A stretch of 64,000 nucleotides of DNA from Odontesthes bonariensis (lineage: Eukaryota > Chordata > Actinopteri > Atheriniformes > Atherinopsidae), in the NCBI RefSeq assembly GCF_027942865.1, contig NC_134524.1, positions 34,247,780 to 34,311,779 of the forward strand, written 5' to 3'. The notes beneath the pieces were generated by a model. The model was not told where the DNA came from. It ran no database searches and saw nothing but the letters and a program-made list of their open reading frames with translations. Positions within the stretch are counted from its first letter, which is position 1. The number at the start of each line of letters is the position of its first letter. Below are positions 9,929 to 64,000 of the stretch, piece after piece. The translations under genes and the position numbers were made by a program.

Positions 9929-9973
9929 GGTGGCGTTTTGTACTATTGGGCAGAAAACTGATTTGGGCTAAAA

Positions 9974-21905: not shown

Positions 21906-22382
21906 CATTAGTGACGATGATGTCATCTGACAGTGTCTGGACTGACTTCCTTTCATGAACACCCCCCAACCCTCCCCCTCTCCCTTCTCTGTCTGCCTGT
22001 GCTGACTAAAGCATGACGGAGCATATGGAAAGTCACGGAACTGTTTTCCCATTCAAACACACATACATTCCTCTGTCTCTATTACTCAAGCAGGAGAAAT
22101 GTAGCAGAAATATTCTGGGTCTTCACATGAAAAGCCATAAATGTTACAAGTTATCATCAGCTGTCTAACAGCCTGCATCAAAACATTCTCTGTTTCTCCT
22201 CAAGGAAAATCCCATGAGCATGGATGGACTGTTTCTATATTTTGCTTCGTCGGGAAGAACAGTACTTTTTTAAAAATTGGTCAAATAAATAAAACCATGT
22301 GGGTTTTAGGTGTGATGATAATCAACAATGACAGCTTCATTGCACTGACTAGCCTGGAGCTTCCTGCTCATACCACCTTATA

Positions 22383-31218: not shown

Positions 31219-31300
31219 CGCTGCGAGCAGGGTTCGAACCTGCGCGGGAAGATCCCATTGGATTTCAAGTCCAACGCCTTAACCACTCGGCCATCGCAGC
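31219..31300 (-). tRNA. tRNA-Ser (anticodon UGA)
   Basis: This is an 82-nt class II tRNA on minus. The acceptor stem GCTGCGA/TCGCAGC pairs fully, with discriminator G at 31219. The D arm has TGGCCGAGTGGTTAAGGC, and the anticodon loop CTTGAAA has TGA at 31267-31265. There is a long variable arm, and the T arm has GGTTCGAACC. No intron is present. All serine identity features (G73, long variable arm) are present, so it looks functional. Confidence 0.96.
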
Positions 31301-34843: not shown

Positions 34844-34847
34844 TTAA

Positions 34848-35501
34848 AGGATAAGACCGGTTTTTTGACATTGGGCCCTTGATTTCACATTATAACATGA
34901 TGTTCTACTCACCCCTGCTTGTTGTTGGTAATTTGGAGCTGTTCCGAAGATATTCGAGAGGCGTCTGGCTGCTCTCTTGAGATATTCGGCCATGAAACGG
35001 TTTCCTATGGGCAAGCTTATACAGGCACAAACTATGCTGTTTATAATTTATTAATTACTGTACACTAGCACTGATAACGTGGAGGTGTGTCGCTTACTTA
35101 AAAAAATCCGGTTATTGTAATTTTGATTTTTTTGTCGTAAAGTGGGTGTTAATGACGTCATCGTCGTGCTACTGCCACAGACAGCCCACAGACCTGCTGC
35201 CTATTTATTCATTCGGCTAAAATTCAAAATTAGTAACCCGGATTTTTTTAAGTAAGCGACGCACCTCCACGTTATCAGTGCTAGTGTACAGTAATTAATA
35301 AATTATAAACAGCATAGTTTGTGCCTGTATAAGCTTGCCCATAGGAAACCGTTTCATGGCCGAATATCTCAAGAGAGCAGCCAGACGCCTCGCGAATATC
35401 TTCGGAGCAGCTCCAAATGACCAACAACAAGCAGGGGTGAGTAGAACATCATGTTATAATGTGAAATCAAGGGCCCAATGTCAAAAAACCGGTCTTATCC
35501 T
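34848..35501. mobile_element. 654-bp foldback transposon with TTAA duplications
   Basis: Two arms of about 285 bp (34848-35137 and 35210-35501) are near-perfect inverted copies around a 70-bp centre. They start with AGGATAAGACCGG and are flanked by TTAA at 34844-34847 and 35502-35505. There is no coding sequence. It is a nonautonomous element of a TTAA-targeting superfamily (Kolobok or piggyBac). The 30-bp giant array begins directly at its right edge. Confidence 0.9.
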
Positions 35502-35760
35502 TTAATTGCTGAACTCCTCCACTGCAGTTTCTGCTCCTGTGTTGCTCTCTGCTGCAGTTTGTGCTCCTTTGTTGCTCTCTGCTGCAGTTTCTGCTGCTGT
35601 GTTGCTCTCTGCTGCAGTTTCTGCTCCTGTGTTGCTCTCTGCTGCAGTTTCTGCTGCTGTGTTGCTCTCTGCTGCAGTTTCTTCTCCTGTGTTGCTCTCC
35701 GCTGCAGTTTCTGCTCCTGTGTTGCTCTCTGCTGCAGTTTCTGCTGCTGAGTTGCTCTCC

Positions 35761-38700
35761 GCTGCAGTTTCTGCTGATGTGTTGCTCTCTTCTGCAGTTT
35801 CTGCTGCTGTGTTGCTCTCTGCTGCAGTTTCTTCTCCTGTATTGCTCTCTGCTGCAGTTTCTGCTTCTGTGTTGCTCTCTGCTGCAGTTTCTGCTGCTGT
35901 GTTGTTCTCTGCTGCAGTTTCTGCTCCTGTGTTGCTCTCTTTTGCAATTTCTGCTCCTGTGTTGCTCTCTGCTGCAGTTTCTGCTCCTGTGTTGCTCTCT
36001 GCTGCAGTTTCTGCTCCTGTGTTGCTCTCTACTGCAGTTTCTGCTCCTGTGTTGCTCTCTGCTGCAGTTTCTGCTCCTGTGTTGCTCTCTACTGCAGTTT
36101 CTGCTGCTGTGTTGCTCTCTGCTGCAGTTTCTGCTCCTGTGTTGCTCTCTGCTGCAGTTTCTGCTGCTGTGTTGCTCTCTGCTGCAGTTTCTGCTGCTGT
36201 GTTGCTCTCTGCTGCAGTTTCTGCTCCTGTGTTGCTCTCTGCTGCAGTTTCTGTTCCTGTGTTGCTCTCTGCTGCAGTTTCTGTTGCTGTGTGGCTCTCT
36301 GCTGCAGTTTCTGCTACTGTGTTGCTCTCTGCTGCAGTTTCTGCTCCTGTGTTGCTCTCTGCTGCAGTTTCTGCTCCTGTGTTGCTCTCTGCTGCAGTTT
36401 GTGCTCCTGTGTTGCTCTCTGCTGCAGTTTGTGCTCCTTTGTTGCTCTCTGCTGCAGTTTGTGCTCCTGTGTTGCTCTCTGCTGCAGTTTCTGCTCCTGT
36501 GTTGCTCTCTGCTGCAGTTTCTGCTGCTGTGTTGCTCTCTGCTGCAGTTTCTGCTCCTGTGTTGCTCTCTGCTGCAGTTTCTGCTCCTGTGTTGCTCTCC
36601 GCTGCAGTTTCTGCTCCTGTGTTGCTCTTTGCTGCAGTTTCTGCTGCTGTGTTGCTCTCTGCTGCAGTTTCTGCTCCTGTGCTGCTCTCTGCTGCAGTTT
36701 CTGCTGCTGTGTTGCTCTCTGCTGCAGTTTCTGCTGCTGTGTTGCTCTCTGCTGCAGTTTCTGCTCCTGTGTGGCTCTCTGCTGCAGTTTCTGTTGCTGT
36801 GTTGCTCTCTGCTGCAGTTTCTGTTGCTGTGTTGCTCTCTGCTGCAGTTTCTGCTCCTGTGTTGCTCTCTGCTGCAGTTTCTGCTCCTGTGTTGCTCTCT
36901 GCTGCAGTTTCTGTTGCTGTGCTGCTCTCTGCTGCAGTTTCTGCTGCTGTGTTGCTCTCTGCTGCAGTTTCTGCTGCTGTGTTGCTCTCTGCTGCAGTTT
37001 CTGCTCCTGTGTGGCTCTCTGCTGCAGTTTCTGTTGCTGTGTTGCTCTCTGCTGCAGTTTCTGCTCCTGTGTTGCTCTCTGCTGCAGTTTCTGCTCCTGT
37101 ATTGCTCTCTGCTGCAGTTTCTGCTCCTGTGTTGCTCTCAGCTGCAGTTTCTGCTCCTGTGTGGCTCTCTGCTGCAGTTTCTGCTCCTGTGTTGCTCTCT
37201 TTTGCAATTTATGCTCCTGTGTTGCTCTTTGCTGCAGTTTCTGCTCCTGTGTTGCTCTCTGCTGCAGTTTCTGCTCCTGTGTTGCTCTCTACTGCAGTTT
37301 CTGCTGCTGTGTTGCTCTCTGCTGCAGTTTCTGCTCCTGTGTTGCTCTCTGCTGCAGTTTCTGCTGCTGTGTTGCTCTCTGCTGCAGTTTCTGCTCCTGT
37401 GTTGCTCTCTGCTGCAGTTTCTGTTCCTGTGTTGCTCTCTGCTGCAGTTTCTGTTGCTGTGTTGCTCTCTGCTGCAGTTTCTGCTACTGTGTTGCTCTCT
37501 GCTGCAGTTTCTGCTGCTGTGTTGCTCTCTGCTGCAGTTTCTGCTCCTGTGTTGCTCTCTGCTGCAGTTTGTGCTCCTGTGTTGCTCTCTGCTGCAGTTT
37601 GTGCTCCTTTGTTGCTCTCTGCTGCAGTTTGTGCTCCTGTGTTGCTCTCTGCTGCAGTTTGTGCTCCTGTGTTGCTCTCTGCTGCAGTTTCTGCTGCTGT
37701 GTTGCTCTCTGCTGCAGTTTCTGCTCCTTTGTTGCTCTCCGCTGCAGTTTCTGCTGATGTGTTGCTCTCTGCTGCAGTTTCTGCTGCTGTGTTGCTCTCT
37801 GCTGCAGTTTCTTCTCCTGTATTGCTCTCTGCTGCAGTTTCTGCTTCTGTGTTGCTCTCTGCTGCAGTTTCTGCTGCTGTGTTGTTCTCTGCTGCAGTTT
37901 CTGCTCCTGTGTTGCTCTCTTTTGCAATTTATGCTCCTGTGTTGCTCTCTGCTGCAGTTTCTGCTCCTGTGTTGCTCTCTACTGCAGTTTCTGCTGCTGT
38001 GTTGCTCTCTGCTGCAGTTTCTGCTCCTGTGTTGCTCTCTGCTGCAGTTTCTGCTGCTTTGTTGCTCTCTGCTGCAGTTTCTGCTCCTGTGTTGCTCTCT
38101 GCTGCAGTTTGTGCTCCTGTGTTGCTCTCTGGTGCTGTTTCTGCTCCTGTGTTGCTCTCTGGTGCAGTTTGTGCTCCTGTGTTGCTCTCTGCTGCAGTTT
38201 CTGCTCCTTTGTTGCTCTCTGCTGCAGTTTGTGCTCCTGTGTTGCTCTCTGCTGCAGTTTATGCTGCTGAGTTGCTCTCCGCTGCAGTTTCTGCTGATGT
38301 GTTGCTCTCTTCTGCAGTTACTGCTGCTGTATTGCTCTCTGCTGCAGTTTCTGCTTCTGTGTTGCTCTCTGCTGCAGTTTCTGCTGCTGTGTTGTTCTCT
38401 GCTGCAGTTTCTGCTCCTGTGTTGCTCTCTTTTGCAATTTCTGCTCCTGTGTTGCTCTCTGCTGCAGTTTCTGCTCCTGTGTTGCTCTCTGCTGCAGTTT
38501 CTGCTCCTGTGTTGCTCTCTACTGCAGTTTCTGCTCCTGTGTTGCTCTCTGCTGCAGTTTCTGCTCCTGTGTTGCTCTCTACTGCAGTTTCTGCTGCTGT
38601 GTTGCTCTCTGCTGCAGTTTCTGCTCCTGTGTTGCTCTCTGCTGCAGTTTCTGCTGCTGTGTTGCTCTCTGCTGCAGTTTCTGCTCCTGTGTTGCTCTCT

Positions 38701-40860
38701 GCTGCAGTTTCTGTTCCTGTGTTGCTCTCTGCTGCAGTTTCTGTTGCTGTGTGGCTCTCTGCTGCAGTTTCTGCTACTGTGTTGCTCTCTGCTGCAGTTT
38801 CTGCTCCTGTGTTGCTCTCTGCTGCAGTTTGTGCTCCTGTGTTGCTCTCTGCTGCAGTTTGTGCTCCTGTGTTGCTCTCTGCTGCAGTTTGTGCTCCTGT
38901 GTTGCTCTCTGCTGCAGTTTGTGCTCCTTTGTTGCTCTCTGCTGCAGTTTGTGCTCCTGTGTTGCTCTCTGCTGCAGTTTCTGCTCCTGTGTTGCTCTCT
39001 GCTGCAGTTTCTGCTGCTGTGTTGCTCTCTGCTGCAGTTTCTGCTCCTGTGTTGCTCTCTGCTGCAGTTTCTGCTCCTGTGTTGCTCTCCGCTGCAGTTT
39101 CTGCTCCTGTGTTGCTCTTTGCTGCAGTTTCTGCTGCTGTGTTGCTCTCTGCTGCAGTTTCTGCTCCTGTGCTGCTCTCTGCTGCAGTTTCTGCTGCTGT
39201 GTTGCTCTCTGCTGCAGTTTCTGCTGCTGTGTTGCTCTCTGCTGCAGTTTCTGCTCCTGTGTGGCTCTCTGCTGCAGTTTCTGTTGCTGTGTTGCTCTCT
39301 GCTGCAGTTTCTGTTGCTGTGTTGCTCTCTGCTGCAGTTTCTGCTCCTGTGTTGCTCTCTGCTGCAGTTTCTGCTCCTGTGTTGCTCTCTGCTGCAGTTT
39401 CTGCTCCTGTGCTGCTCTCTGCTGCAGTTTCTGCTGCTGTGTTGCTCTCTGCTGCAGTTTCTGCTGCTGTGTTGCTCTCTGCTGCAGTTTCTGCTCCTGT
39501 GTGGCTCTCTGCTGCAGTTTCTGTTGCTGTGTTGCTCTCTGCTGCAGTTTCTGTTGCTGTGTTGCTCTCTGCTGCAGTTTCTGCTCCTGTGTTGCTCTCT
39601 GCTGCAGTTTCTGCTCCTGTATTGCTCTCTGCTGCAGTTTCTGCTCCTGTGTTGCTCTCAGCTGCAGTTTCTGCTCCTGTGTGGCTCTCTGCTGCAGTTT
39701 CTGCTCCTGTGTTGCTCTCTTTTGCAATTTATGCTCCTGTGTTGCTCTTTGCTGCAGTTTCTGCTCCTGTGTTGCTCTCTGCTGCAGTTTCTGCTCCTGT
39801 GTTGCTCTCTACTGCAGTTTCTGCTGCTGTGTTGCTCTCTGCTGCAGTTTCTGCTCCTGTGTTGCTCTCTGCTGCAGTTTCTGCTGCTGTGTTGCTCTCT
39901 GCTGCAGTTTCTGCTCCTGTGTTGCTCTCTGCTGCAGTTTCTGTTCCTGTGTTGCTCTCTGCTGCAGTTTCTGTTGCTGTGTTGCTCTCTGCTGCAGTTT
40001 CTGCTACTGTGTTGCTCTCTGCTGCAGTTTCTGCTGCTGTGTTGCTCTCTGCTGCAGTTTGTGCTCCTGTGTTGCTCTCTGCTGCAGTTTGTGCTCCTGT
40101 GTTGCTCTCTGCTGCAGTTTGTGCTCCTTTGTTGCTCTCTGCTGCAGTTTGTGCTCCTGTGTTGCTCTCTGCTGCAGTTTGTGCTCCTGTGTTGCTCTCT
40201 GCTGCAGTTTCTGCTGCTGTGTTGCTCTCTGCTGCAGTTTCTGCTCCTTTGTTGCTCTCCGCTGCAGTTTCTGCTGATGTGTTGCTCTCTGCTGCAGTTT
40301 CTGCTGCTGTGTTGCTCTCTGCTGCAGTTTCTTCTCCTGTATTGCTCTCTGCTGCAGTTTCTGCTTCTGTGTTGCTCTCTGCTGCAGTTTCTGCTGCTGT
40401 GTTGTTCTCTGCTGCAGTTTCTGCTCCTGTGTTGCTCTCTTTTGCAATTTATGCTCCTGTGTTGCTCTCTGCTGCAGTTTCTGCTCCTGTGTTGCTCTCT
40501 ACTGCAGTTTCTGCTGCTGTGTTGCTCTCTGCTGCAGTTTCTGCTCCTGTGTTGCTCTCTGCTGCAGTTTCTGCTGCTTTGTTGCTCTCTGCTGCAGTTT
40601 CTGCTCCTGTGTTGCTCTCTGCTGCAGTTTGTGCTCCTGTGTTGCTCTCTGGTGCTGTTTCTGCTCCTGTGTTGCTCTCTGGTGCAGTTTGTGCTCCTGT
40701 GTTGCTCTCTGCTGCAGTTTCTGCTCCTTTGTTGCTCTCTGCTGCAGTTTGTGCTCCTGTGTTGCTCTCTGCTGCAGTTTATGCTGCTGAGTTGCTCTCC
40801 GCTGCAGTTTCTGCTGATGTGTTGCTCTCTTCTGCAGTTACTGCTGCTGTATTGCTCTCT
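35761..40860. repeat. 2520-bp higher-order repeat in the array
   Basis: Diagnostic variants recur at 2520 bp (84 units). The CTGCTGATGT/TCTGCAG pair is at 35761, 38281 and 40801. TTTGCAATTTATGCTCC is at 37201 and 39721. The double GGTG units are at 38131-38190 and 40651-40710. Local offsets of one unit (2460-2490) occur between 35941 and 37080. Confidence 0.9.
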
Positions 40861-43350
40861 GCTGCAGTTTCTGCTCCTGTGTTGCTCTCTGCTGCAGTTT
40901 CTGTTCCTGTGTTGCTCTCTGCTGCAGTTTCTGTTCCTGCGTTGCTCTCTGCTGCAGTTTCTGCTCCTGCGTTGCTCTCTGCTGCAGTTTGTGCTCCTGC
41001 GTTGCTCTCTGCTGCAGTTTGTGCTCCTGCGTTGCTCTCTGCTGCAGTTTGTGCTCCTGTGTTGCTCTCTGCTGCAGTTTGTGCTCCTTTGTTGCTCTCT
41101 GCTGCAGTTTCTGCTCCTGTGTTGCTCTCTGCTGCAGTTTGTGCTCCTGTGTTGCTCTCTGCTGCAGTTTGTGCTCCTGTGTTGCTCTCTGCTGCAGTTT
41201 GTGCTCCTTTGTTGCTCTCTGCTGCAGTTTGTGCTCCTGTGTTGCTCTCTGCTGCAGTTTCTGCTGCTGTGTTGCTCTCTGCTGCAGTTTCTGCTCCTGT
41301 GTTGCTCTCTGCTGCAGTTTCTGCTCCTGTGTTGCTCTCTGCTGCAGTCTCTGCTGCTGTGTTGCTCTCTGCTGCAGTTTCTGCTCCTGTGTTGCTCTTC
41401 GCTGCAGTTTCTGCTGATGTGTTGCTCTCTGCTGCAGTTTCTGCTGCTGTGTTGCTTTCTGCTGCAGTTTCTTCTCCTGTATTGCTCTCTGCTGCAGTTT
41501 CTGCTTCTGTGTTGCTCTCTGCTGCAGTTTCTGCTGCTGTGTTGTTCTCTGCTGCAGCTTCTGCTCCTGTGTTGCTCTCTTTTGCAATTTATGCTCCTGT
41601 GTTGCTCTCTGCTGCAGTTTCTGCTCCTGTGTTGCTCTCTACTGCAGTTTCTGCTGCTGTGTTGCTCTCTGCTGCAGTTTCTGCTCCTGTGTTGCTCTCT
41701 GCTGCAGTTTCTGCTGCTGTGTTGCTCTCTGCTGCAGTTTCTGCTCCTGTGTTGCTCTCTGCTGCAGTTTCTGTTCCTGTGTTGCTCTCTGCTGCAGTTT
41801 CTGTTGCTGTGTTGCTCTCTGCTGCAGTTTCTGCTCCTGTGTTGCTCTCTGCTGCAGTTTCTGCTGCTTTGTTGCTCTCTGCTGCAGTTTCTGCTCCTGT
41901 GTTGCTCTCTGCTGCAGTTTCTGCTCCTGTATTGCTCTCTGCTGCAGTTTCTGCTGCTGTGTTGCTCTCCGCTGCAGTTTGTGCTCCTGTGTTGCTCTCC
42001 GCTGCAGTTTCTGCTCCTTTGTTGCTCTCTGCTGCAGTTTCTGCTCCTGTGTTGCTCTCTGCTGCAGTTTCTGCTCCTGTGTTGCTCTCCGCTGCAGTTT
42101 CTGCTGATGTGTTGCTCTCTTCTGCAGTTTCTGCTGCTGTGTTGCTCTCTGCTGCAGTTTCTTCTCCTGTATTGCTCTCTGCTGCAGTTTCTGCTTCTGT
42201 GTTGCTCTCTGCTGCAGTTTCTGCTGCTGTGTTGTTCTCTGCTGCAGTTTCTGCTCCTGTGTTGCTCTCTTTTGCAATTTATGCTCCTGTGTTGCTCTCT
42301 GCTGCAGTTTCTGCTGCTGTGTTGCTCTCCGCTGCAGTTTCTGCTCCTGTTTTGCTCTCTGCTGCAGTTTCTGCTGCTGTGTTGCTCTCTGCTGCAGTTT
42401 ATGCTGCTGAGTTGCTCTCCGCTGCAGTTTCTGCTGATGTGTTGCTCTCTTCTGCAGTTTCTGCTGCTGTGTTGCTCTCTGCTGCAGTTTCTTCTCCTGT
42501 ATTGCTCTCTGCTGCAGTTTCTGCTCCTGTGTTGCTCTCTGCTGCAGTTTCTGCTGCTGTGTTGCTCTCTGCTGCAGTTTCTGCTCCTGTGTTGCTCTCT
42601 GCTGCAGTTTCTGCTCCTGTGTTGCTCTCTGCTGCAGTTTCTGCTCCTGTGTTGCTCTCTGCTGCAGTTTCTGCTCCTGTGTTGCTCTCTGCTGCAGTTT
42701 CTGCTCCTGTGTTGCTCTCTGCTGCAGTTTCTGCTCCTGTGTTGCTCTCTGCTGCAGTTTCTGTTCCTGTGTTGCTCTCTGCTGCAGTTTCTGCTCCTGC
42801 GTTGCTCTCTGCTGCAGTTTCTGCTCCTGCGTTGCTCTCTGCTGCAGTTTGTGCTCCTGCGTTGCTCTCTGCTGCAGTTTGTGCTCCTGCGTTGCTCTCT
42901 GCTGCAGTTTGTGCTCCTGCGTTGCTCTCTGCTGCAGTTTGTGCTCCTGCGTTGCTCTCTGCTGCAGTTTGTGCTCCTGCGTTGCTCTCTGCTGCAGTTT
43001 GTGCTCCTGTGTTGGTCTCTGCTGCAGTTTCTGATGCTGTGTTGCTCTCTGCTGCAGTTTCTGCTCCTGTGTTGCTCTCTGCTGCAGTTTCTGCTCCTGT
43101 GTTGCTCTCTGCTGCAGTTTCTGCTGCTGTGTTGCTCTCTGCTGCAGTTTCTGCTCCTGTGTTGCTCTCTGCTGCAGTTTCTGCTCCTGTGTTGCTCTCT
43201 ACTGCTGTTTCTGCTGCTGTATTGCTCTCTGCTGCAGTTTCTGCTCCTGTGTTGCTCTCTGCTGCAGTTTCTGTTGCTGTGTTGCTCTCTGCTGCAGTTT
43301 CTGCTCCTGTGTTGCTCTCCGCTGCAGTTTCTGCTCCTGTGTTGCTCTCT

Positions 43351-44490
43351 GCTTAGGTTTCTGCTCCTGTGTTGCTCTCTGCTGCAGTTTCTGCTGCTGT
43401 GTTTCTCTCCGCTGCAGTTTCTGCTGCTGTGTTGCTCTCTACTGCAGTTTCTGCTCCTGTGTTGCTCTCTGCTGCAGTTTTTGCTCCTGTGTTGCTCTCT
43501 GCTGCAGTTTCTGCTCCTGTGTTGCTCTCTGCTGTAGTTTCTGCTCCTGTGTTGCTCTTTGCTGCAGTTTCTGCTCCTTTGTTGCTCTCCGCTGCAGTTT
43601 CTGCTCCTGTGTTGCTCTTTGCTGCAGTTTCTGCTGCTGTGTTGCTCTTTGCTGCAGTTTCTGCTCCTGTGTTGCTCTCTGCTGCAGTTTCTGCTGCTGT
43701 GTTGCTCTCTGCTGCAGTTTCTGCTCCTGTGTGGCTCTCTGCTGCAGTTTCTGTTGCTGTGTTGCTCTCTGCTGCAGTTTCTGCTCCTGTGTTGCTCTCT
43801 GCTGCAGTTTCTGCTCCTGTATTGCTCTCCGCTGCAGTTTCTGCTGCTGTGTTGCTCTCCGCTGCAGTTTCTGCTCCTGTGTTTCTCTCCGCTGCAGTTT
43901 CTGCTCCTGTGTTGCTCTCTGCTTAGGTTTCTGCTCCTGTGTTGCTCTCTGCTGCAGTTTCTGCTGCTGTGTTTCTCTCCGCTGCAGTTTCTGCTGCTGT
44001 GTTGCTCTCTACTGCAGTTTCTGCTCCTGTGTTGCTCTCTGCTGCAGTTTTTGCTCCTGTGTTGCTCTCTGCTGCAGTTTCTGCTCCTGTGTTGCTCTCT
44101 GCTGTAGTTTCTGCTCCTGTGTTGCTCTTTGCTGCAGTTTCTGCTCCTTTGTTGCTCTCCGCTGCAGTTTCTGCTCCTGTGTTGCTCTTTGCTGCAGTTT
44201 CTGCTGCTGTGTTGCTCTTTGCTGCAGTTTCTGCTCCTGTGTTGCTCTCTGCTGCAGTTTCTGCTGCTGTGTTGCTCTCTGCTGCAGTTTCTGCTCCTGT
44301 GTGGCTCTCTGCTGCAGTTTCTGTTGCTGTGTTGCTCTCTGCTGCAGTTTCTGCTCCTGTGTTGCTCTCTGCTGCAGTTTCTGCTCCTGTATTGCTCTCT
44401 GCTGCAGTTTCTGCTGCTGTGTTGCTCTCCGCTGCAGTTTCTGCTCCTGTGTTTCTCTCAGCTGCAGTTTCTGCTCCTGTGTGGCTCTCT
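43351..44490. repeat. 570-bp tandem duplication in the array
   Basis: The GCTTAGG unit at 43351 recurs at 43921 with the same 19-unit series of variants after it (GTTTCTCTCC, ACTGCAG, TTTTTGCTCC, CTGTAG). Confidence 0.85.
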
Positions 44491-46440
44491 GCTGCAGTTT
44501 CTGCTCCTGTGTTTTTCTCTGCTGCAGTTTCTGCTCCTGTGTTGCTTTCTGCTGCAGTTTCTGCTGCTGTGTTGCTCTCTGCTGCAGTTTCTGCTCCTGT
44601 GTTGCTCTCAGCTGCAGTTTCTGCTCCTGCGTTGCTCTCTGCTGCAGTTTCTGCTCCTGCGTTGCTCTCTGCTGCAGTTTCTGCTGCTGTGTTGCTCTCC
44701 GCTGCAATTTCTGCTCCTGTGTTGCTCTCTGCTGCAGTTTCTGCTGCTGTGTTGCTCTCTGCTGCAGTTTCTGCTCCTTTGTTGCTCTCCGCTGCAGTTT
44801 CCGCTGATGTGTTGCTCTCTGCTGCAGTTTCTGCTGCTGTGTTGCTCTCTGCTGCAGTTTCTGCTCCTGTGTTGCTCTCTGCTGCAGTTTCTGCTCCTGT
44901 GTTGCTCTCTGCTTAGGTTTCTGCTCCTGTGTTGCTCTCTGCTGCAGTTTCTGCTGCTGTGTTGCTCTCCGCTGCAGTTTCTGCTCCTGTGTTGCTCTCT
45001 GCTGCAGTTTCTGCTCCTGTGTTGCTCTCTACTGCTGTTTCTGCTGCTATATTGCTCTCTGCTGCAGTTTCTGCTCCTGTGTTGCTCTCTGCTGCAGTTT
45101 CTGTTGCTGTGTTGCTCTCTGCTGCAGTTTCTGCTCCTGTGTTGCTCTCCGCTGCAGTTTCTGCTCCTGTGTTGCTCTCTGCTTAGGTTTCTGCTCCTGT
45201 GTTGCTCTCTGCTGCAGTTTCTGCTGCTGTGTTTCTCTCCGCTGCAGTTTCTGCTGCTGTGTTGCTCTCTACTGCAGTTTCTGCTCCTGTGTTGCTCTCT
45301 GCTGCAGTTTTTGCTCCTGTGTTGCTCTCTGCTGCAGTTTCTGCTCCTGTGTTGCTCTCTGCTGTAGTTTCTGCTCCTGTGTTGCTCTTTGCTGCAGTTT
45401 CTGCTCCTTTGTTGCTCTCCGCTGCAGTTTCTGCTCCTGTGTTGCTCTTTGCTGCAGTTTCTGCTGCTGTGTTGCTCTTTGCTGCAGTTTCTGCTCCTGT
45501 GTTGCTCTCTGCTGCAGTTTCTGCTGCTGTGTTGCTCTCTGCTGCAGTTTCTGCTCCTGTGTGGCTCTCTGCTGCAGTTTCTGTTGCTGTGTTGCTCTCT
45601 GCTGCAGTTTCTGCTCCTGTATTGCTCTCTGCTGCAGTTTCTGCTGCTGTGTTGCTCTCCGCTGCAGTTTTTGCTCCTGTGTTGCTCTCAGCTGCAGTTT
45701 CTGCTCCTGTGTGGCTCTCTGCTGCAGTTTCTGCTCCTGTGTTGCTCTCTGCTGCAGTTTCCGCTCCTGTGTTGCTTTCTGCTGCAGTTTCTGCTGCTGT
45801 GTTGCTCTCTGCTGCAGTTTCTGTTGCTGTGTTGCTCTCTGCTGCAGTTTCTGATCCTGTGTTGCTCTCTGCTGCAGTTTCCGCTGATGTGTTGCTCTCT
45901 GCTGCAGTTTCTGCTGCTGTGTTGCTCTCTGCTGCAGTTTCTTCTCCTGTGTTGCTCTCTGCTGCAGTTTCTGCTGCTGTGTTGCTCTCTACTGCAGTTT
46001 CTGCTCCTGTGTTGCTCTCTGCTGCAGTTTCTGCTCCTGTGTTGCTCTCTGCTGCAGTTTCTGCTCCTGTGTTTCTCTCTGCTGTAGTGTCTGCTCCTGT
46101 GTTGCTCTTTGCTGCAGTTTCTGCTCCTTTGTTGCTCTCCGCTGCAGTTTCTGCTCCTGTGTTGCTCTTTGCTGCAGTTTCTGCTGCTGTGTTAATCTTT
46201 GCTGCAGTTTCTGCTCCTGTGTTGCTCTCTGCTGCAGTTTCTGCTGCTGTGTTGCTCTCTGCTGCAGTTTCTGCTCCTGTGTGGCTCTCTGCTGCAGTTT
46301 CTGTTGCTGTGTTGCTCTCTGCTGCAGTTTCTGTTGCTGTGTTGCTCTCTGCTGCAGTTTCTGCTCCTGTGTTGCTCTCTGCTGCAGTTTCTGCTCCTGT
46401 ATTGCTCTCTGCTGCAGTTTCTGCTGCTGTGTTGCTCTCC

Positions 46441-47340
46441 GCTGCAGTTTCTGCTCCTGTGTTGCTCTCAGCTGCAGTTTCTGCTCCTGTGTGGCTCTCT
46501 GCTGCAGTTTCTGCTCCTGTGTTGCTCTCTGCTGCAGTTTCTGCTCCTGTGTTGCTTTCTGCTGCAGTTTCTGCTGCTGTGTTGCTCTCTGCTGCAGTTT
46601 CTGTTGCTCTGTTGCTCTCTGCTGCAGTTTCTGATCCTGTGTTGCTCTCTGCTGCAGTTTCTGCTGCTGTGTTGCTCTTTGCTGCAGTTTCTGCTCCTGC
46701 GTTGCTCTCTGCTGCAGTTTCTGCTGCTGTGTTGCTCTCCGCTGCAGTTTCTGCTCCTGTTTTGCTCTCTGCTGCAGTTTCTGCTGCTGTGTTGCTCTCT
46801 GCTGCAGTTTATGCTCCTGTGTTGCTCTCTTTTGCAATTTCTGCTCCCATGTTGCTCTCTGCTGCAGTTTCTGCTGCTGTGTTGCTCTCCGCTGCAGTTT
46901 CTGCTCCTGTGTTGCTCTCAGCTGCAGTTTCTGCTCCTGTGTGGCTCTCTGCTGCAGTTTCTGCTCCTGTGTTGCTCTCTGCTGCAGTTTCTGCTCCTGT
47001 GTTGCTTTCTGCTGCAGTTTCTGCTGCTGTGTTGCTCTCTGCTGCAGTTTCTGTTGCTCTGTTGCTCTCTGCTGCAGTTTCTGATCCTGTGTTGCTCTCT
47101 GCTGCAGTTTCTGCTGCTGTGTTGCTCTTTGCTGCAGTTTCTGCTCCTGCGTTGCTCTCTGCTGCAGTTTCTGCTGCTGTGTTGCTCTCCGCTGCAGTTT
47201 CTGCTCCTGTTTTGCTCTCTGCTGCAGTTTCTGCTGCTGTGTTGCTCTCTGCTGCAGTTTATGCTCCTGTGTTGCTCTCTTTTGCAATTTCTGCTCCCAT
47301 GTTGCTCTCTGCTGCAGTTTCTGCTGCTGTGTGGCTCTCT
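46441..47340. repeat. 450-bp tandem duplication in the array
   Basis: A 15-unit block is repeated with the same variants, including CTGCTCTCA-type, CTGATCC, and the rare TTTGCAATTTCTGCTCCCAT at 46831 and 47281. Confidence 0.85.
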
Positions 47341-47970
47341 GCTGCAGTTTCTGCTCCTTTGTTGCTCTCCGCTGCAGTTTCCGCTGATGTGTTGCTCTCT
47401 GCTGCAGTTTCTGCTGCTGTGTTGCTCTCTGCTGCAGTTTCTGCTCCTGTGTTGCTCTCTGCTGCAGTTTCTGTTCCTGTGTTGCTCTCTGCTGCAGTTT
47501 CTGTTCCTGTGTTGCTCTCTGCTGCAGTTTCTGTTCCTGCGTTGCTCTCTGCTGCAGTTTCTGCTCCTGCGTTGCTCTCTGCTGCAGTTTGTGCTCCTGC
47601 GTTGCTCTCTGCTGCAGTTTGTGCTCCTGCGTTGCTCTCTGCTGCAGTTTGTGCTCCTGTGTTGCTCTCTGCTGCAGTTTCTGCTCCTGTGTTGCTCTCT
47701 GCTGCAGTTTCTGCTCCTGTGTTGCTCTCTGCTGCAGTTTCTGCTGCTGTGTTGCTCTCTGCTGCAGTTTCTGCTCCTGTGTTGCTCTCTGCTGCAGTTT
47801 GTGCTCCTGTGTTGCTCTCTACTGCAGTTTCTGCTGCTGTATTGCTCTCTGCTGCAGTTTCTGCTCCTGTGTTGCTCTCTGCTGCAGTTTCTGTTGCTGT
47901 GTTGCTCTCTGCTGCAGTTTCTGCTCCTGTGTTGCTCTCCGCTGCAGTTTCTGCTCCTGTGTTGCTCTCT

Positions 47971-53000: not shown

Positions 53001-55664
53001 GTTGCTCTCTGCTGCAGTTTCTGCTCCTGTGTTGCTCTCTGCTGCAGTTTTTGCTCCTGTGTTGCTCTCTACTGCAGTTTATGCTGCTGTGTTGCTCTCT
53101 GCTGCAGTTTCTGCTCCTGTGTTGCTCTCTGCTGCAGTTTCTGTTGCTGTGTTGCTCTCTGCTGCAGTTTCTTTTCCTGTGTTGCTCTCCGCTGCAGTTT
53201 CTGCTCCTGTGTTGCTCTCTGCTTAGGTTTCTGCTCCTGTGTTGCTCTCTGCTGCAGTTTCTGCTGCTGTGTTGCTCTCCGCTGCAGTTTCTGCTGCTGT
53301 GTTGCTCTCCGCTGCAGTTTCTGCTGCTGTGTTGCTCTCTACTGCAGTTTCTGCTCCTGTATTGCTCTCTGCTGCAGTTTTTGCTCCTGTGTTGCTCTCT
53401 GCTGCAGTTTCTGCTCCTGTGTTGCTCTCTGCTGTAGTTTCTGCTCCTGTGTTGCTCTTTGCTGCAGTTTCTGCTCCTTTGTTGCTCTCCGCTGCAGTTT
53501 CTGCTCCTGTGTTGCTCTTTGCTGCAGTTTCTGCTCCTGTGCTGCTCTCTGCTGCAGTTTCTGCTGCTGTGTTGCTCTTTGCTGCAGTTTCTGCTCCTGT
53601 GTTGCTCTCTGCTGCAGTTTCTGCTCCTGCGTTGCTCTCTGCTGCAGTTTGTGCTCCTGCGTTGCTCTCTGCTGCAGTTTGTGCTCCTGCGTTGCTCTTT
53701 GCTGCAGTTTGTGCTCCTGCGTTGCTCTCTGCTGCAGTTTGTGCTCCTGCGTTGCTCTCTGCTGCAGTTTGTGCTCCTGTGTTGCTCTCTGCTGCAGTTT
53801 CTGCTGCTGTGTTGCTCTCTGCTGCAGTTTCTGCTCCTGTGTTGCTCTCTGCTGCAGTTTCTGCTCCTGTGTTGCTCTCTGCTGCAGTTTCTGCTGCTGT
53901 GTTGCTCTCTGCTGCAGTTTCTGCTCCTGTGTTGCTCTCTGCTGCAGTTTCTGCTCCTGTGTTGCTCTCTACTGCAGTTTCTGCTGCTGTATTGCTCTCT
54001 GCTGCAGTTTCTGCTCCTGTGTTGCTCTCTGCTGCAGTTTCTGTTGCTGTGTTGCTCTCTGCTGCAGTTTCTGATCCTGTGTTGCTCTCTGCTGCAGTTT
54101 CTGCTGCTGTTTTGCTCTCCGCTGCAGTTTCTGCTCCAATGTTGCTCTCTGCTGCAGTTTCTGCTGCTGTGTTGCTCTCTGCTGCAGTTTCTGCTGCTGT
54201 GTTGCTCTCTGCTGCAGTTTCTGCTCCTTTGTTGCTCTCCGCTGCAGTTTCTGCTTATGTGTTGCTCTCTGCTGCAGTTTCTGCTGCTGTGTTGCTCTCT
54301 GCTGCAGTTTCTTCTCCTGTATTGCTCTCTGCTACAGTTTCTGCTTCTGTGTTGCTCTCTGCTGCAGTTTCTGCTGCTGTGTTGTTCTCTGCTGCAGTTT
54401 CTGCTCCTGTGTTGCTCTCTTCTGCAATTTATGCTCCTGTGTTGCTCTCTGCTGCAGTTTCTGCTCCTGTCTTGCTCTCTACTGCAGTTTCTGCTCCTGT
54501 GTTGCTCTCTGCTGCAGTTTGTGCTCCTGTGTTGCTCTCTGCTGCAGTTTGTGCTCCTGTGTTGCTCTCTGCTGCAGTTTGTGCTCCTGTGTTGCTCTCT
54601 GCTGCAGTTTCTGCTGCTGTGTTGCTCTCTGCTGCAGTTTCTGCTCCTGTGTTGCTCTCTGCTGCAGTTTCTGCTCCTGTGTTGCTCTCTGCTGCAGTTT
54701 CTGCTGCTGTGTTGCTCTCTGCTGCAGTTTCTGCTCCTGTGTTGCTCTCTGCTGCAGTTTCTGCTCCTGTGTTGCTCTCTACTGCAGTTTCTGCTGCTGT
54801 ATTGCTCTCTGCTGCAGTTTCTGCTCCTGTGTTGCTCTCTGCTGCAGTTTCTGCTCCTGTGTTGCTCTCTGCTGCAGTTTCTGTTGCTGTGTTGCTCTCT
54901 GCTGCAGTTTCTGATCCTGTGTTGCTCTCTGCTGCAGTTTCTGCTGCTGTTTTGCTCTCCGCTGCAGTTTCTGCTCCTGTGTTGCTCTCTGCTGCAGTTT
55001 CTGCTGCTGTGTTGCTCTCTGCTGCAGTTTCTGCTCCTTTGTTGCTCTCCGCTGCAGTTTCTGCTGATGTGTTGCTCTCTGCTGCAGTTTCTGCTGCTGT
55101 GTTGCTCTCTGCTGCAGTTTCTTCTCCTGTATTGCTCTCTGCTACAATTTCTGCTTCTGTGTTGCTCTCTGCTGCAGTTTCTGCTGCTGTGTTGTTCTCT
55201 GCTGCAGTTTCTGCTCCTGTGTTGCTCTCTTCTGCAATTTATGCTCCTGTGTTGCTCTCTGCTGCAGTTTCTGCTCCTGTCTTGCTCTCTACTGCAGTTT
55301 CTGCTCCTGTGTTGCTCTCTGCTGCAGTTTCTGCTCCTGTGTTGCTCTCTGCTGCAGTTTCTGCTGCTGTGTTGCTCTCTGCTGCAGTTTCTGCTCCTGT
55401 GTTGCTCTCTGCTGCAGTTTCTGTTCCTGTGTTGCTCTCTGCTGCAGTTTCTGTTGCTGTGTTGCTCTCTGCTGCAGTTTCTGCTCCTGTGTTGCTCTCT
55501 GCTGTAGTTTGTGCTCCTGTGTTGCTCTCTGCTGCAGTTTGTGCTCCTTTGTTGCTCTCTGCTGCAGTTTCTGCTCCTGTGTTGCTCTCTTTTGCAATTT
55601 CTGCTCCTGTGTTGCTCTCTGCTGCAGTTTCTGCTGCTGTGTTGCTCTCTGCTGCAGTTTCTGC

Positions 55665-58600
55665 TCCTGTGTTGCTCTCTGCTGCAGTTTCTGCTCCTGT
55701 GTTGCTCTCTGCTGCAGTTTCTGCTGCTGTGTTGCTCTCTGCTGCAGTTTCTGCTCCTGTGTTGCTCTCTGCTGCAGTTTCTGCTCCTGTGTTGCTCTCT
55801 ACTGCCGTTTATGCTGCTGTGTTTCTCTCTGCTGCAGTTTCTGCTCCTGTGTTGCTCTCTGCTGCAGTTTCTGTTGCTGTGTTGCTCTCTGCTGCAGTTT
55901 CTGCTCCTGTGTTGCTCTCCGCTGCAGTTTCTGCTCCTGTGTTGCTCTCTGCTTAGGTTTCTGCTCCTGTGTTGCTCTCCGCTGCAGTTTCTGCTGCTGT
56001 GTTGCTCTCCGCTGCAGTTTCTGCTGCTGTGTTGCTCTCTACTGCAGTTTCTGCTCCTGTGTTGCTCTCTGCTGCAGTTTTTGCTCCTGTGTTGCTCTCT
56101 GCTGCAGTTTCTGCTCCTGTGTTGCTCTCTGCTGTAGTTTCTGCTCCTGTGTTGCTCTTTGCTGCAGTTTCTGCTCCTTTGTTGCTCTCCGCTGCAGTTT
56201 CTGCTCCTGTGTTGCTCTTTGCTGCAGTTTCTGCTGCTGTGTTGCTCTCTGCTGCAGTTTCTGCTCCTGTGCTGCTCTCTGCTGCAGTTTCTGCTGCTGT
56301 GTTGCTCTTTGCTGCAGTTTCTGCTCCTGTGTTGCTCTCTGCTGCAGTTTCTGCTGCTGTGTTGCTCTCTGCTGCAGTTTCTGATCCTGTGTGGCTCTCT
56401 GCTGCAGTTTCTGTTGCTGTGTTGCTCTCTGCTGCAGTTTCTGCTCCTGTGTTGCTCTCTGCTGCAGTTTCTGCTCCTGTATTGCTCTCTGCTGCAGTTT
56501 CTGCTGCTGTGTTGCTCTCCGCTGCAGTTTCTGCTCCTGTGTTGCTGTCAGCTGCAGTTTCTGCTCCTGTGTGGCTCTCTGCTGCAGTTTCTGCTCCTGT
56601 GTTGCTCTCTGCTGCAGTTTCTGCTCCTGTGTTGCTTTCTGCTGCAGTTTCTGCTGCTGTGTTGCTCTCTGCTGCAGTTTCTGTTGCTGTGTTGCTCTCT
56701 GCTGCAGTTTCTGATCCTGTGTTGCTCTCTGCTGCAGTTTCTGCTGCTGTTTTGCTCTCCGCTGCAGTTTCTGCTCCTGTGTTGCTCTCTGCTGCAGTTT
56801 CTGCTGCTGTGTTGCTCTCTGCTGCAGTTTCTGCTCCTGTGTTGCTCTCCGCTGCAGTTTCTGCTTATGTGTTTCTCTCTGCTGCAGTTTCTGCTGCTGT
56901 GTTGCTCTCTGCTGCAGTTTCTTCTCCTGTATTGCTCTCTGCTACAGTTTCTGCTTCTGTGTTGCTCTCTGCTGCAGTTTCTGCTGCTGTGTTGTTCTCT
57001 GCTGCAGTTTCTGCTCCTGTGTTGCTCTCTTCTGCAATTTATGCTCCTGTGTTGCTCTTTGCTGCAGTTTCTGCTCCTGTCTTGCTCTCTACTGCAGTTT
57101 CTGCTCCTGTGTTGCTCTCTGCTGCAGTTTCTGCTCCTGTGTTGCTCTCTGCTGCAGTTTCTGCTGCTGTGTTGCTCTCTGCTGCAGTTTCTGCTCCTGT
57201 GTTGCTCTCTGCTGCAGTTTCTGTTCCTGTGTTGCTCTCTGCTGCAGTTTCTGTTGCTGTGTTGCTCTCTGCTGCAGTTTCTGCTCCTGTGTTGCTCTCT
57301 GCTGCAGTTTCTGCTGCTTTGTTGCTCTCTGCTGCAGTTTCTGCTCCTGTGTTGCTCTCTGCTGCAGTTTCTGCTCCTGTGTTGCTCTCTGGTGCTGTTT
57401 CTGCTCCTGTGTTGCTCTCTGCTGCAGTTTGTGCTCCTGTGTTGCTCTCTGCTGCAGTTTCTGCTCCTTTGTTGCTCTCTGCTGCAGTTTCTGCTCCTGT
57501 GTTGCTCTCTGCTGCAGTTTCTGCTGCTGTGTTGCTCTCTGCTGCAGTTTCTGCTGCTGTGTTGCTCTGCTGCAGTTTCTGCTCCTGTGTTGCTCTCTGC
57601 TGCAGTTTCTGCTGCTGTGTTGCTCTCTGCTGCAGTTTCTGCTCCTGTGTTGCTCTCTGCTGCAGTTTCTGCTCCTGTGTTGCTCTCTACTGCAGTTTCT
57701 GCTGCTGTGTTGCTCTCTGCTGCAGTTTCTGCTCCTGTGTTGCTCTTTGCTGCAGTTTCTGCTCCTGTGTTGCTCTCTGCTGCAGTTTCTGCTGCTGTGT
57801 TGCTCTCTGCTGCAGTTTCTGCTCCTGTGTTGCTCTCTGCTGCAATTTCTGCTCCTGTGTTGCTCTTTGCTGCAGTTTCTGCTCCTGTGTTGCTCTCTGC
57901 TGCAGTTTCTGCTCCTGTGTTGCTCTCCGCTGCAGTTTCTGCTCCTGTGTTGCTCTCCGCTGCAGTTTTTGCTCCTGTGTTGCTCTCTGCTGCAGTTTTT
58001 GCTGCTGTGTTGCTCTCCGCTGCAGTTTCTGCTCCTGTGTTGCTCTCTGCTGCAGTTTCTGCTGCTGTGTTGCTCTCTGCTGCAGTTTCTGCTCCTTTGT
58101 TGCTCTCCGCTGCAGTTTCTGCTGATGTGTTGCTCTCTGCTGCAGTTTCTGCTGCTGTGTTGCTCTCTGCTGCAGTTTCTTCTCCTGTATTGCTCTCTGC
58201 TACAGTTTCTGCTTCTGTGTTGCTCTCTGCTGCAGTTTCTGCTGCTGTGTTGTTCTCTGCTGCAGTTTCTGCTCCTGTGTTGCTCTCTGCTGCAGTTTCT
58301 GCTGCTGTGTTGCTCTCTGCTGCAGTTTCTGCTCCTGTGTTGCTCTCTGCTGCAGTTTCTGTTGCTGTGTTGCTCTCTGCTGCAGTTTCTGCTCCTGTGT
58401 TGCTCTCTGCTGCAGTTTCTGCTGCTTTGTTGCTCTCTGCTGCAGTTTCTGCTCCTGTGTTGCTCTCTGCTGCAGTTTCTGCTCCTGTGTTGCTCTCTGG
58501 TGCTGTTTCTGCTCCTGTGTTGCTCTCTGCTGCAGTTTGTGCTCCTGTGTTGCTCTCTGCTGCAGTTTCTGCTCCTTTGTTGCTCTCTGCTGCAGTTTCT

Positions 58601-61600
58601 GCTCCTGTGTTGCTCTCTGCTGCAGTTTCTGCTGCTGTGTTGCTCTCTGCTGCAGTTTCTGCTGCTCTGTTGCTCTGCTGCAGTTTCTGCTCCTGTGTTG
58701 CTCTCTGCTGCAGTTTCTGCTCCTGTGTTGCTCTCTACTGCAGTTTCTGCTGCTGTGTTGCTCTCTGCTGCAGTTTCTGCTCCTGTGTTGCTCTTTGCTG
58801 CAGTTTCTGCTCCTGTGTTGCTCTCTGCTGCAGTTTCTGCTCCTGTGTTGCTCTCTGCTGCAATTTCTGCTCCTGTGTTGCTCTTTGCTGCAGTTTCTGC
58901 TCCTGTGTTGCTCTCTGCTGCAGTTTCTGCTCCTGTGTTGCTCTCTGCTGCAGTTTCTGCTCCTGTGTTGCTCTCTGCTGCAGTTTTTGCTGCTGTGTTG
59001 CTCTCTGCTGCAGTTTCTGCTCCTGTGTTACTCTCTGCTGCAGTTTCTGCTCCTGTGTTGCTCTCTGCTGCAGTTTCTGCTCCTGTGTTGCTCTCTGCTG
59101 CAGTTTCTGCTCCTGTGTTGCTCTCTGCTTCAGTTTCTGCTTCTGTGTTGCTCTCTGCTGCAGTTTCTGCTGCTTTGTTGCTCTCTGCTGCAGTTTCTGC
59201 TCCTGTATTGCTCTCTGTTGCAGTTTCTGCTCCTGTGTTGCTCTCTGGTGCTGTTTCTGCTCCTGTGTTGCTCTCTGCTGCAGTTTGTGCTCCTGTGTTG
59301 CTCTCTGCTGCAGTTTCTGCTCCTTTGTTGCTCTCTGCTGCAGTTTCTGCTCCTGTGTTGCTCTCTGCTGCAGTTTCTGCTGCTGTGTTGCTCTCTGCTG
59401 CAGTTTCTGCTGCTGTGTTGCTCTGCTGCAGTTTCTGCTCCTGTGTTGCTCTCTGCTGCAGTTTCTGCTCCTGTGTTGCTCTTTGCTGCAGTTTCTGCTC
59501 CTGTGTTGCTCTCTGCTGCAGTTTCTGCTCCTGTGTTGCTCTCCGCTGCAGTTTCTGCTCCTGTGTTGCTCTCTGCTGCAGTTTTTGCTGCTGTGTTGCT
59601 CTCTGCTGCAGTTTCTGCTCCTGTGTTACTCTCTGCTGCAGTTTCTGCTCCTGTGCTGCTCTCTGCTGCAGTTTCTGCTCCTGTGTTGCTCTCTGCTGCA
59701 GTTTCTGCTCCTGTGTTAATCTCTGCTGCAGTTTCTGCTCCTGTGTTGCTCTCTGCTTCAGTTTCTGCTTCTGTGTTGCTCTCTGCTGCAGTTTCTGCTC
59801 CTGTGTTGCTCTCTGCTGCAGTTTCTGCTCCTGTGTTGCTCTTTGCTGCAGTTTATGCTGCTGTGTTGCTCTTTGCTGCAGTTTATGCTCCTGTGTTGCT
59901 CTCTGCTGCAGTTTCTGCTCCTGTGTTGCTCTTTGCTGCAGTTTCTGCTGCTGTGTTGCTCTCCGCTGCAGTTTCTGCTCCTGTGTTGTTCTCTGCTGCA
60001 GTTTCTGCTCCTGTGTTGCTCTCTTTTGCAATTTATGCTCCTTTGTTGCTCTCTGCTGCAGTTTCTGCTCCTGTGTTGCTCTCTGCTGCAGTTTCTGCTC
60101 CTGTGTTGCTCTCTACTGCAGTTTCTGCTGCTGTGTTGCTCTCTGCTGCAGTTTCTGCTCCTGTGTTGCTCTCTGCTGCAGTTTCTGCTGCTGTGTTGCT
60201 CTGCTGCAGTTTCTGATCCTGTGTTGCTCTCTGCTGCAGTTTCTGTTCCTGTGTTGCTCTCTGCTGCAGTTTCTGTTGCTGTGTTGCTCTCTGCTGCAGT
60301 TTCTGCTCCTGTGTTGCTCTCCGCTGAGGTTTCTTCTCCTGTGTTGCTCTCCGCTGCAGTTTCTGCTTGTGTGTTGCTCTCTAAATGCAGTTTCTGCTCC
60401 TGTGTTGCTCTCTGCTGAAGTTTCTTCTCCTGTGTTGCTCTCCGCTGCAGTTTCTGCTCCTGTGTTGCTCTCTGCTGCAGTTTCTGCTGCTGTGTTGCTC
60501 TCTGCTGCAGTTTCTGCTCCTGTGTTGCTCTCTGCTGCAGTTTCTGCTCCTGTGTTGCTCTCTACTGCCGTTTATGCTGCTGTGTTTCTCTCTGCTGCAG
60601 TTTCTGCTCCTGTGTTGCTCTCTGCTGCAGTTTCTGTTGCTGTGTTGCTCTCTGCTGCAGTTTCTGCTCCTGTGTTGCTCTCCGCTGCAGTTTCTGCTCC
60701 TGTGTTGCTCTCTGCTTAGGTTTCTGCTCCTGTGTTGCTCTCCGCTGCAGTTTCTGCTGCTGTGTTGCTCTCCGCTGCAGTTTCTGCTGCTGTGTTGCTC
60801 TCTACTGCAGTTTCTGCTCCTGTGTTGCTCTCTGCTGCAGTTTTTGCTCCTGTGTTGCTCTCTGCTGCAGTTTCTGCTCCTGTGTTGCTCTCTGCTGTAG
60901 TTTCTGCTCCTGTGTTGCTCTTTGCTGCAGTTTCTGCTCCTTTGTTGCTCTCCGCTGCAGTTTCTGCTCCTGTGTTGCTCTTTGCTGCAGTTTCTGCTGC
61001 TGTGTTGCTCTCTGCTGCAGTTTCTGCTCCTGTGCTGCTCTCTGCTGCAGTTTCTGCTGCTGTGTTGCTCTTTGCTGCAGTTTCTGCTCCTGTGTTGCTC
61101 TCTGCTGCAGTTTCTGCTGCTGTGTTGCTCTCTGCTGCAGTTTCTGATCCTGTGTGGCTCTCTGCTGCAGTTTCTGTTGCTGTGTTGCTCTCTGCTGCAG
61201 TTTCTGCTCCTGTGTTGCTCTCTGCTGCAGTTTCTGCTCCTGTATTGCTCTCTGCTGCAGTTTCTGCTGCTGTGTTGCTCTCCGCTGCAGTTTCTGCTCC
61301 TGTGTTGCTGTCAGCTGCAGTTTCTGCTCCTGTGTGGCTCTCTGCTGCAGTTTCTGCTCCTGTGTTGCTCTCTGCTGCAGTTTCTGCTCCTGTGTTGCTT
61401 TCTGCTGCAGTTTCTGCTGCTGTGTTGCTCTCTGCTGCAGTTTCTGTTGCTGTGTTGCTCTCTGCTGCAGTTTCTGATCCTGTGTTGCTCTCTGCTGCAG
61501 TTTCTGCTGCTGTTTTGCTCTCCGCTGCAGTTTCTGCTCCTGTGTTGCTCTCTGCTGCAGTTTCTGCTGCTGTGTTGCTCTCTGCTGCAGTTTCTGCTCC

Positions 61601-64000
61601 TGTGTTGCTCTCCGCTGCAGTTTCTGCTTATGTGTTTCTCTCTGCTGCAGTTTCTGCTGCTGTGTTGCTCTCTGCTGCAGTTTCTTCTCCTGTATTGCTC
61701 TCTGCTACAGTTTCTGCTTCTGTGTTGCTCTCTGCTGCAGTTTCTGCTGCTGTGTTGTTCTCTGCTGCAGTTTCTGCTCCTGTGTTGCTCTCTTCTGCAA
61801 TTTATGCTCCTGTGTTGCTCTTTGCTGCAGTTTCTGCTCCTGTCTTGCTCTCTACTGCAGTTTCTGCTCCTGTGTTGCTCTCTGCTGCAGTTTCTGCTCC
61901 TGTGTTGCTCTCTGCTGCAGTTTCTGCTGCTGTGTTGCTCTCTGCTGCAGTTTCTGCTCCTGTGTTGCTCTCTGCTGCAGTTTCTGTTCCTGTGTTGCTC
62001 TCTGCTGCAGTTTCTGTTGCTGTGTTGCTCTCTGCTGCAGTTTCTGCTCCTGTGTTGCTCTCTGCTGCAGTTTCTGCTGCTTTGTTGCTCTCTGCTGCAG
62101 TTTCTGCTCCTGTGTTGCTCTCTGCTGCAGTTTCTGCTCCTGTGTTGCTCTCTGGTGCTGTTTCTGCTCCTGTGTTGCTCTCTGCTGCAGTTTGTGCTCC
62201 TGTGTTGCTCTCTGCTGCAGTTTCTGCTCCTTTGTTGCTCTCTGCTGCAGTTTCTGCTCCTGTGTTGCTCTCTGCTGCAGTTTCTGCTGCTGTGTTGCTC
62301 TCTGCTGCAGTTTCTGCTGCTGTGTTGCTCTGCTGCAGTTTCTGCTCCTGTGTTGCTCTCTGCTGCAGTTTCTGCTGCTGTGTTGCTCTCTGCTGCAGTT
62401 TCTGCTCCTGTGTTGCTCTCTGCTGCAGTTTCTGCTCCTGTGTTGCTCTCTACTGCAGTTTCTGCTGCTGTGTTGCTCTCTGCTGCAGTTTCTGCTCCTG
62501 TGTTGCTCTTTGCTGCAGTTTCTGCTCCTGTGTTGCTCTCTGCTGCAGTTTCTGCTGCTGTGTTGCTCTCTGCTGCAGTTTCTGCTCCTGTGTTGCTCTC
62601 TGCTGCAATTTCTGCTCCTGTGTTGCTCTTTGCTGCAGTTTCTGCTCCTGTGTTGCTCTCTGCTGCAGTTTCTGCTCCTGTGTTGCTCTCCGCTGCAGTT
62701 TCTGCTCCTGTGTTGCTCTCCGCTGCAGTTTTTGCTCCTGTGTTGCTCTCTGCTGCAGTTTTTGCTGCTGTGTTGCTCTCCGCTGCAGTTTCTGCTCCTG
62801 TGTTGCTCTCTGCTGCAGTTTCTGCTGCTGTGTTGCTCTCTGCTGCAGTTTCTGCTCCTTTGTTGCTCTCCGCTGCAGTTTCTGCTGATGTGTTGCTCTC
62901 TGCTGCAGTTTCTGCTGCTGTGTTGCTCTCTGCTGCAGTTTCTTCTCCTGTATTGCTCTCTGCTACAGTTTCTGCTTCTGTGTTGCTCTCTGCTGCAGTT
63001 TCTGCTGCTGTGTTGTTCTCTGCTGCAGTTTCTGCTCCTGTGTTGCTCTCTGCTGCAGTTTCTGCTGCTGTGTTGCTCTCTGCTGCAGTTTCTGCTCCTG
63101 TGTTGCTCTCTGCTGCAGTTTCTGTTGCTGTGTTGCTCTCTGCTGCAGTTTCTGCTCCTGTGTTGCTCTCTGCTGCAGTTTCTGCTGCTTTGTTGCTCTC
63201 TGCTGCAGTTTCTGCTCCTGTGTTGCTCTCTGCTGCAGTTTCTGCTCCTGTGTTGCTCTCTGGTGCTGTTTCTGCTCCTGTGTTGCTCTCTGCTGCAGTT
63301 TGTGCTCCTGTGTTGCTCTCTGCTGCAGTTTCTGCTCCTTTGTTGCTCTCTGCTGCAGTTTCTGCTCCTGTGTTGCTCTCTGCTGCAGTTTCTGCTGCTG
63401 TGTTGCTCTCTGCTGCAGTTTCTGCTGCTCTGTTGCTCTGCTGCAGTTTCTGCTCCTGTGTTGCTCTCTGCTGCAGTTTCTGCTCCTGTGTTGCTCTCTA
63501 CTGCAGTTTCTGCTGCTGTGTTGCTCTCTGCTGCAGTTTCTGCTCCTGTGTTGCTCTTTGCTGCAGTTTCTGCTCCTGTGTTGCTCTCTGCTGCAGTTTC
63601 TGCTCCTGTGTTGCTCTCTGCTGCAATTTCTGCTCCTGTGTTGCTCTTTGCTGCAGTTTCTGCTCCTGTGTTGCTCTCTGCTGCAGTTTCTGCTCCTGTG
63701 TTGCTCTCTGCTGCAGTTTCTGCTCCTGTGTTGCTCTCTGCTGCAGTTTTTGCTGCTGTGTTACTCTCTGCTGCAGTTTCTGCTCCTGTGTTGCTCTCTG
63801 CTGCAGTTTCTGCTCCTGTGTTGCTCTCTGCTGCAGTTTCTGCTCCTGTGTTGCTCTCTGCTTCAGTTTCTGCTTCTGTGTTGCTCTCTGCTGCAGTTTC
63901 TGCTGCTTTGTTGCTCTCTGCTGCAGTTTCTGCTCCTGTATTGCTCTCTGTTGCAGTTTCTGCTCCTGTGTTGCTCTCTGGTGCTGTTTCTGCTCCTGTG
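55665..64000. repeat. 4763-bp higher-order repeat in the array
   Basis: The GCTTAGG unit at 55951 recurs at 60714. The two-base deletion near 57566 recurs near 62329. The GGTGCTG unit at 58499 recurs at 63262. All three give 4763 bp, and I saw no difference between the copies at the variants I compared. The second copy is cut by the window end. Confidence 0.9.

Follow-up and report, generated by a model that had tools for sequence, protein, structure and literature searches.

A 30-bp tandem array of at least 28.5 kb carrying recent exact multi-unit duplications in Odontesthes bonariensis

The window analyzed here is a 64-kb stretch of the genome of Odontesthes bonariensis. Its left half contains a PAI-1 (serpine1) gene on the minus strand, whose matching open reading frames span positions 12850 to 18414 and which was recognized from matches to PDB chains and from Pfam, where the serpin family is named at this locus. 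Four open reading frames match (18007-18414, 16131-16433, 15825-16076 and 12850-13248); each has chain 4kds as its top PDB match, and jointly they cover positions 11-218 and 343-372 of that chain. The two best PDB matches, 4kds and 4dte, are presumably both fish proteins. By eye, further open reading frames look like the missing exons of the gene. The same half also contains pieces of a single LINE family, 97-99% alike, at 9974-11067, 18875-19364, 25904-26889 and 1557-2032. The LINE reverse transcriptase at 9907-11952 gave 7,886 hits at E <= 0.001; among the best 120, the named organisms are ray-finned fishes, with the exception of two rows labeled Vibrio parahaemolyticus, which were taken for contamination. 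The serpin and LINE matches are in line with a teleost host. A weak reverse transcriptase match at 3544-4338 on the minus strand, below the Pfam cut-off (27.5 vs 29.6 bits), is distinct from this LINE family. A tRNA match of 66.7 bits is found at 31219-31300, also on the minus strand.

Further to the right, a foldback (inverted-repeat) element occupies positions 34839 to 35510. Its two arms, at 34839-35130 and 35219-35510, are 292 nt long, are separated by 88 nt and are complementary at 278 of 292 positions, with AATTAA at both outer ends. The arms carry a 67-residue open stretch, which may be due to chance or to descent. Eleven bp separate the element from the tandem array that fills the remainder of the window.

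This array, at 35522-64000 on the plus strand, consists of head-to-tail copies of a 30-bp unit with the consensus CTGCAGTTTCTGCTCCTGTGTTGCTCTCTG. Tandem Repeats Finder (TRF) reports it as a single array with a period of 30, 949.7 copies, 93% matches, 0% indels and a score of 48,689. A walk along the units yielded 949 complete 30-bp units of 123 distinct types, with a mean of 1.25 mismatches to the consensus; 223 of the 949 are identical to it. The initial annotation, which described a 28.5-kb, roughly 950-copy minisatellite running off the window, is borne out by these counts. Its starting coordinate, 35506, is not: the first unit lies at 35522, and positions 35511-35521 separate it from the foldback element. 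Because the array occupies the final base of the window, 28.5 kb (at least 28,479 bp) is a lower bound on its length. The left edge is sharp and undecayed: the first unit matches the consensus perfectly, and mismatches in the first 20 units average 1.2, compared with 1.25 overall.

The composition of the array is strongly skewed (A 4.0%, C 28.1%, G 23.9%, T 44.0%), at about 52% G+C, and its units are 96% identical to the consensus. The 43% T and 3% A given previously fit the consensus, in which T and A account for 13 and 1 of the 30 positions, respectively. CTGCAG was correctly said to occur in nearly every unit, as it opens 872 of the 949. Consecutive PstI sites are exactly 30 bp apart in 794 of 871 cases and 60 bp apart in 66, and thus a complete digest should give mainly 30-bp fragments, with a ladder being clearest in a partial digest. 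The consensus, described as nearly free of CpG, contains none, and the entire array has 127 CpG dinucleotides against 1,913 expected from its base composition. In the left 35.5 kb of the window, the observed-to-expected CpG ratio is 0.45. The folding of a four-unit stretch is barely better than that of shuffled sequences on either strand (z of -1.48 and -1.34); 18 and 21 of 200 shuffles, for the two strands, folded at least as well. The exact 30-mer is absent from collections of viral and prokaryotic contigs, in which one would not expect a fish repeat and from which close records may be missing; the literature searched, which included few subscription papers, names no fish array of this unit.

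A second array of 30-bp units lies within the left half of the window, at 22382-23974 (53.1 copies, 95% matches). Its identical neighbors are slightly more numerous than after shuffling, 15 vs 11.1, and its longest exact block comprises 10 units, at a lag of 11. Kinship between the two arrays was considered and rejected, since their best ungapped alignment, over all rotations and both strands, reaches only 13 of 30 positions; the sequences are unrelated.

The foldback element adjoins the array so closely that the question arises of whether the array was born from it, in the manner of the Tetris repeats of Drosophila virilis; PMC4079207 describes how a satellite arose there from a foldback transposon. 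We consider this origin very improbable. When four units were compared with positions 1-35521 by BLASTN, only chance-level matches were obtained, and none of them falls within 34839-35510. Within the left flank, the top matches (83% over 29 bp; E = 0.10) fall at 10650-10677 and 18947-18974, in two LINE copies; they are the candidates for an origin from the LINE, and are likewise at chance level. We therefore regard the foldback element as a neighbor of the array, and not as a source of its unit.

Could the array instead be coding, as an exon that encodes a mucin or another repeat protein in units of 10 residues? The unit length is divisible by three, indels are few, and open frames of up to 2,674 amino acids are present. 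Such long frames are, however, made likely by the base composition, and no frame is open throughout: stop codons number 13 to 53 per frame over the whole array, in all six frames, and 8 to 44 per frame in the part that precedes the first indel (35524-57560). Nor is there an excess of synonymous changes among the 54 distinct substitution alleles in any of the six frames, the observed and expected synonymous shares being 0.333/0.333, 0.204/0.233, 0.315/0.333, 0.204/0.242, 0.148/0.192 and 0.222/0.267. Pieces of 300-310 residues from two frames were also searched against a protein database. The frame that reads AVSAPVLLSA had no match at E <= 0.001 among 3,888 candidates. The frame that reads ESNTGAETAA matched one protein, at 45% identity over 43%, with domains PF01476 (which we take to be LysM) and PF19077; this match was taken as compositional. 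With stops in every frame and no sign of codon constraint, a coding array is the least probable of the readings weighed here, and we rejected it.

Along the array, identical units are adjacent in 71 cases, compared with a mean of 76.5 after shuffling, a ratio of 0.92. Singly copied units should resemble their neighbors; that neighbors are not alike argues against single-unit copying. The only short-range signal is a slightly raised identity at lags 2 and 3 (0.098 and 0.100, compared with 0.081 +/- ~0.008 in shuffled arrays, or about 2.3 to 2.5 SD), for which some short-range copying is a possible source. By contrast with shuffled arrays, exact multi-unit blocks recur: 58 pairs of blocks of at least 7 units are found, while 100 shuffles averaged 0.03 such pairs and never gave more than 1, and 607 of the 949 units (0.64) lie inside such blocks. 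The lags of the largest blocks are 159, 84, 34, 61, 83, 19, 42 and 15 units. The longest exact run, seen both in unit runs and by offset comparison, comprises 110 complete units, compared with at most 6 in 50 shuffles. Its two copies, at 55681-58999 and, 4,763 bp downstream, at 60444-63762 on the plus strand, extend over 3,319 bp without a single mismatch, which bounds their divergence at about 0.09% by the rule of three. The array thus carries recent exact multi-unit duplications. At the same time, the pairwise difference between units is flat with distance, with a mean of 2.08-2.21 per unit.

The earlier proposal of a recently exploded local repeat is partly supported by these observations. 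Exact block copies of up to 3,319 bp, and the absence of the unit from the left 35.5 kb beyond matches at chance level, are in its favor, but 'recent' applies to the last rearrangements only.

Long exact blocks could also be produced by assembly errors. Tandem repeats are a recognized source of these, as noted in PMC6868369, and a 3,319-bp stretch that returns without mismatch 4,763 bp further on might be left by mis-joined reads that doubled a region. That the length of the array or its long exact duplicates are artefacts of this kind is nevertheless unlikely in our view. The other 57 pairs of exact blocks, each 7 or more units long and at many different lags, are beyond what one mis-join can explain, and if one 4.8-kb copy were removed, the array would still measure about 23.7 kb.

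To examine which sizes of copying event are compatible with this structure, we simulated the array with a model of growth and turnover in which copied blocks have a geometric length distribution. A first round comprised 24 settings with 4 seeds each; a second, with which the first agrees, comprised 90 settings with 3 seeds each, of which 10 settings with a homozygosity of 0.05-0.13 (observed, 0.081) were kept. When single units were copied, the adjacent-identity ratio was 4.53 and 5.53, far from the observed 0.92, whereas a mean block of 5 units gave 1.07 and means of 20-120 units gave 0.89-1.05. Exact blocks covered 0.56-0.66 of the simulated array for mean blocks of at least 20 units and a tenfold turnover, close to the observed 0.64, but only 0.15 for a mean block of 5. 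These simple simulations thus favor the copying of tens of units at a time over slippage of one unit. No setting in either round matched all of the observed statistics: in the 10 comparable settings the longest block averaged 43 units, compared with 110 observed, and the simulated arrays contained 140-299 distinct unit types, compared with 123. Because the model falls short of the 110-unit block and produces an excess of types, it supports a size class of events, and not a full history.

Taken together, these data lead us to regard the array as probably a very long non-coding teleost minisatellite, reshaped mainly by the exchange of blocks of tens of units. Under this mechanism, tens of units would be copied or deleted together, rather than single units being added or lost by slippage. 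Out-of-register (unequal) recombination, gene conversion and break-induced repair between copies are all candidate routes, which the data do not separate. Such exchanges would homogenize the array as a whole, and similarity between units would then hardly depend on their distance. The distribution of phase breaks counts against an array that is uniformly homogenized, as these are confined to the last 6.4 kb. All seven lie after position 57,500, in the stretch 57512-63503 on the plus strand, with none in the first 22 kb; six are the same 2-bp loss in CTCTCTG, one is a +1 change near 60384, and two of these breaks duplicate two others that lie 4,763 bp away. Most simply, the array would be a by-product of recombination acting on a neutral repeat, and we infer no selected function for it.

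The initial annotation also raised the possibility of a centromeric, subtelomeric or heterochromatic satellite, and the array might be the part in view of a satellite, whether centromeric, pericentromeric or subtelomeric, that extends far beyond the window. It is undecayed at base 64000, where the window stops; its strands are strongly asymmetric and poor in CpG; and repeats of about 30 bp are described at the centromeric domains of Trypanosoma brucei (PMC1868937). Against this, the array has exons of PAI-1 on its left at a distance of about 17-23 kb, and the left edge is sharp, with no rise in mismatches among the first 20 units, although neither point is decisive. An exact-pattern scan of the 64-kb window detected no CENP-B box and no run of two or more TTAGGG units, which is weak evidence in the same direction. 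The satellite proposal thus finds no support in these observations, and we consider it unlikely, if somewhat less so than an assembly artefact. The fuller scenario, in which the window is the edge of a chromosome-scale domain, with a strand-asymmetric, CpG-poor 30-bp unit as the principal satellite of the fish at its centromeres or in its heterochromatin and an abrupt start less than about 20 kb from a conserved gene, appears about as unlikely as such an artefact.

Provided that the assembly is correct, the probable minisatellite offers a long, readable record of minisatellite change. Each unit carries markers, and the exact copies therefore allow individual duplications, of 0.45 to 4.8 kb, to be followed. 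It also follows that a satellite-sized array can sit less than about 20 kb from a conserved gene. On its own, the array overturns no view of tandem repeats.

How, then, does this array compare with known systems? According to the account in PMC12692304, minisatellites have units of 11-60 bp and arrays of usually a few hundred bp, in a classification that is approximate. The 30-bp unit falls within this range, and the array resembles a minisatellite (VNTR) in being head to tail, non-coding and internally homogeneous to a high degree. Block duplication, a mode of minisatellite change described in PMC2674676, is akin to the block copying seen here. Against the few hundred bp that are usual, though not a strict limit, a length of at least 28.5 kb bears out the initial description of an array far larger than ordinary minisatellites. 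Satellites, as portrayed in PMC7004042, are set apart by a skewed composition and by arrays that reach at least tens of kilobases. The array shares both features, and it is non-coding, with stops in six frames and no codon constraint, but its unit is far shorter than the hundreds of bp typical of satellite DNA. The arrays at the centromeric domains of T. brucei are similar in their unit of about 30 bp and kilobase-scale length; by the description in PMC1868937, however, those repeats are AT-rich and degenerate, with 76-83% identity, compared with about 52% G+C and 96% in the fish. In Tetris of D. virilis, a foldback element also borders a tandem array, but the Tetris unit is, as reported in PMC4079207, part of its element, whereas the fish unit resembles no part of the element beside it. 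The array is therefore a minisatellite by the length of its unit and a satellite by the length of the array; its length is unusual for such a unit, while its kind is known.
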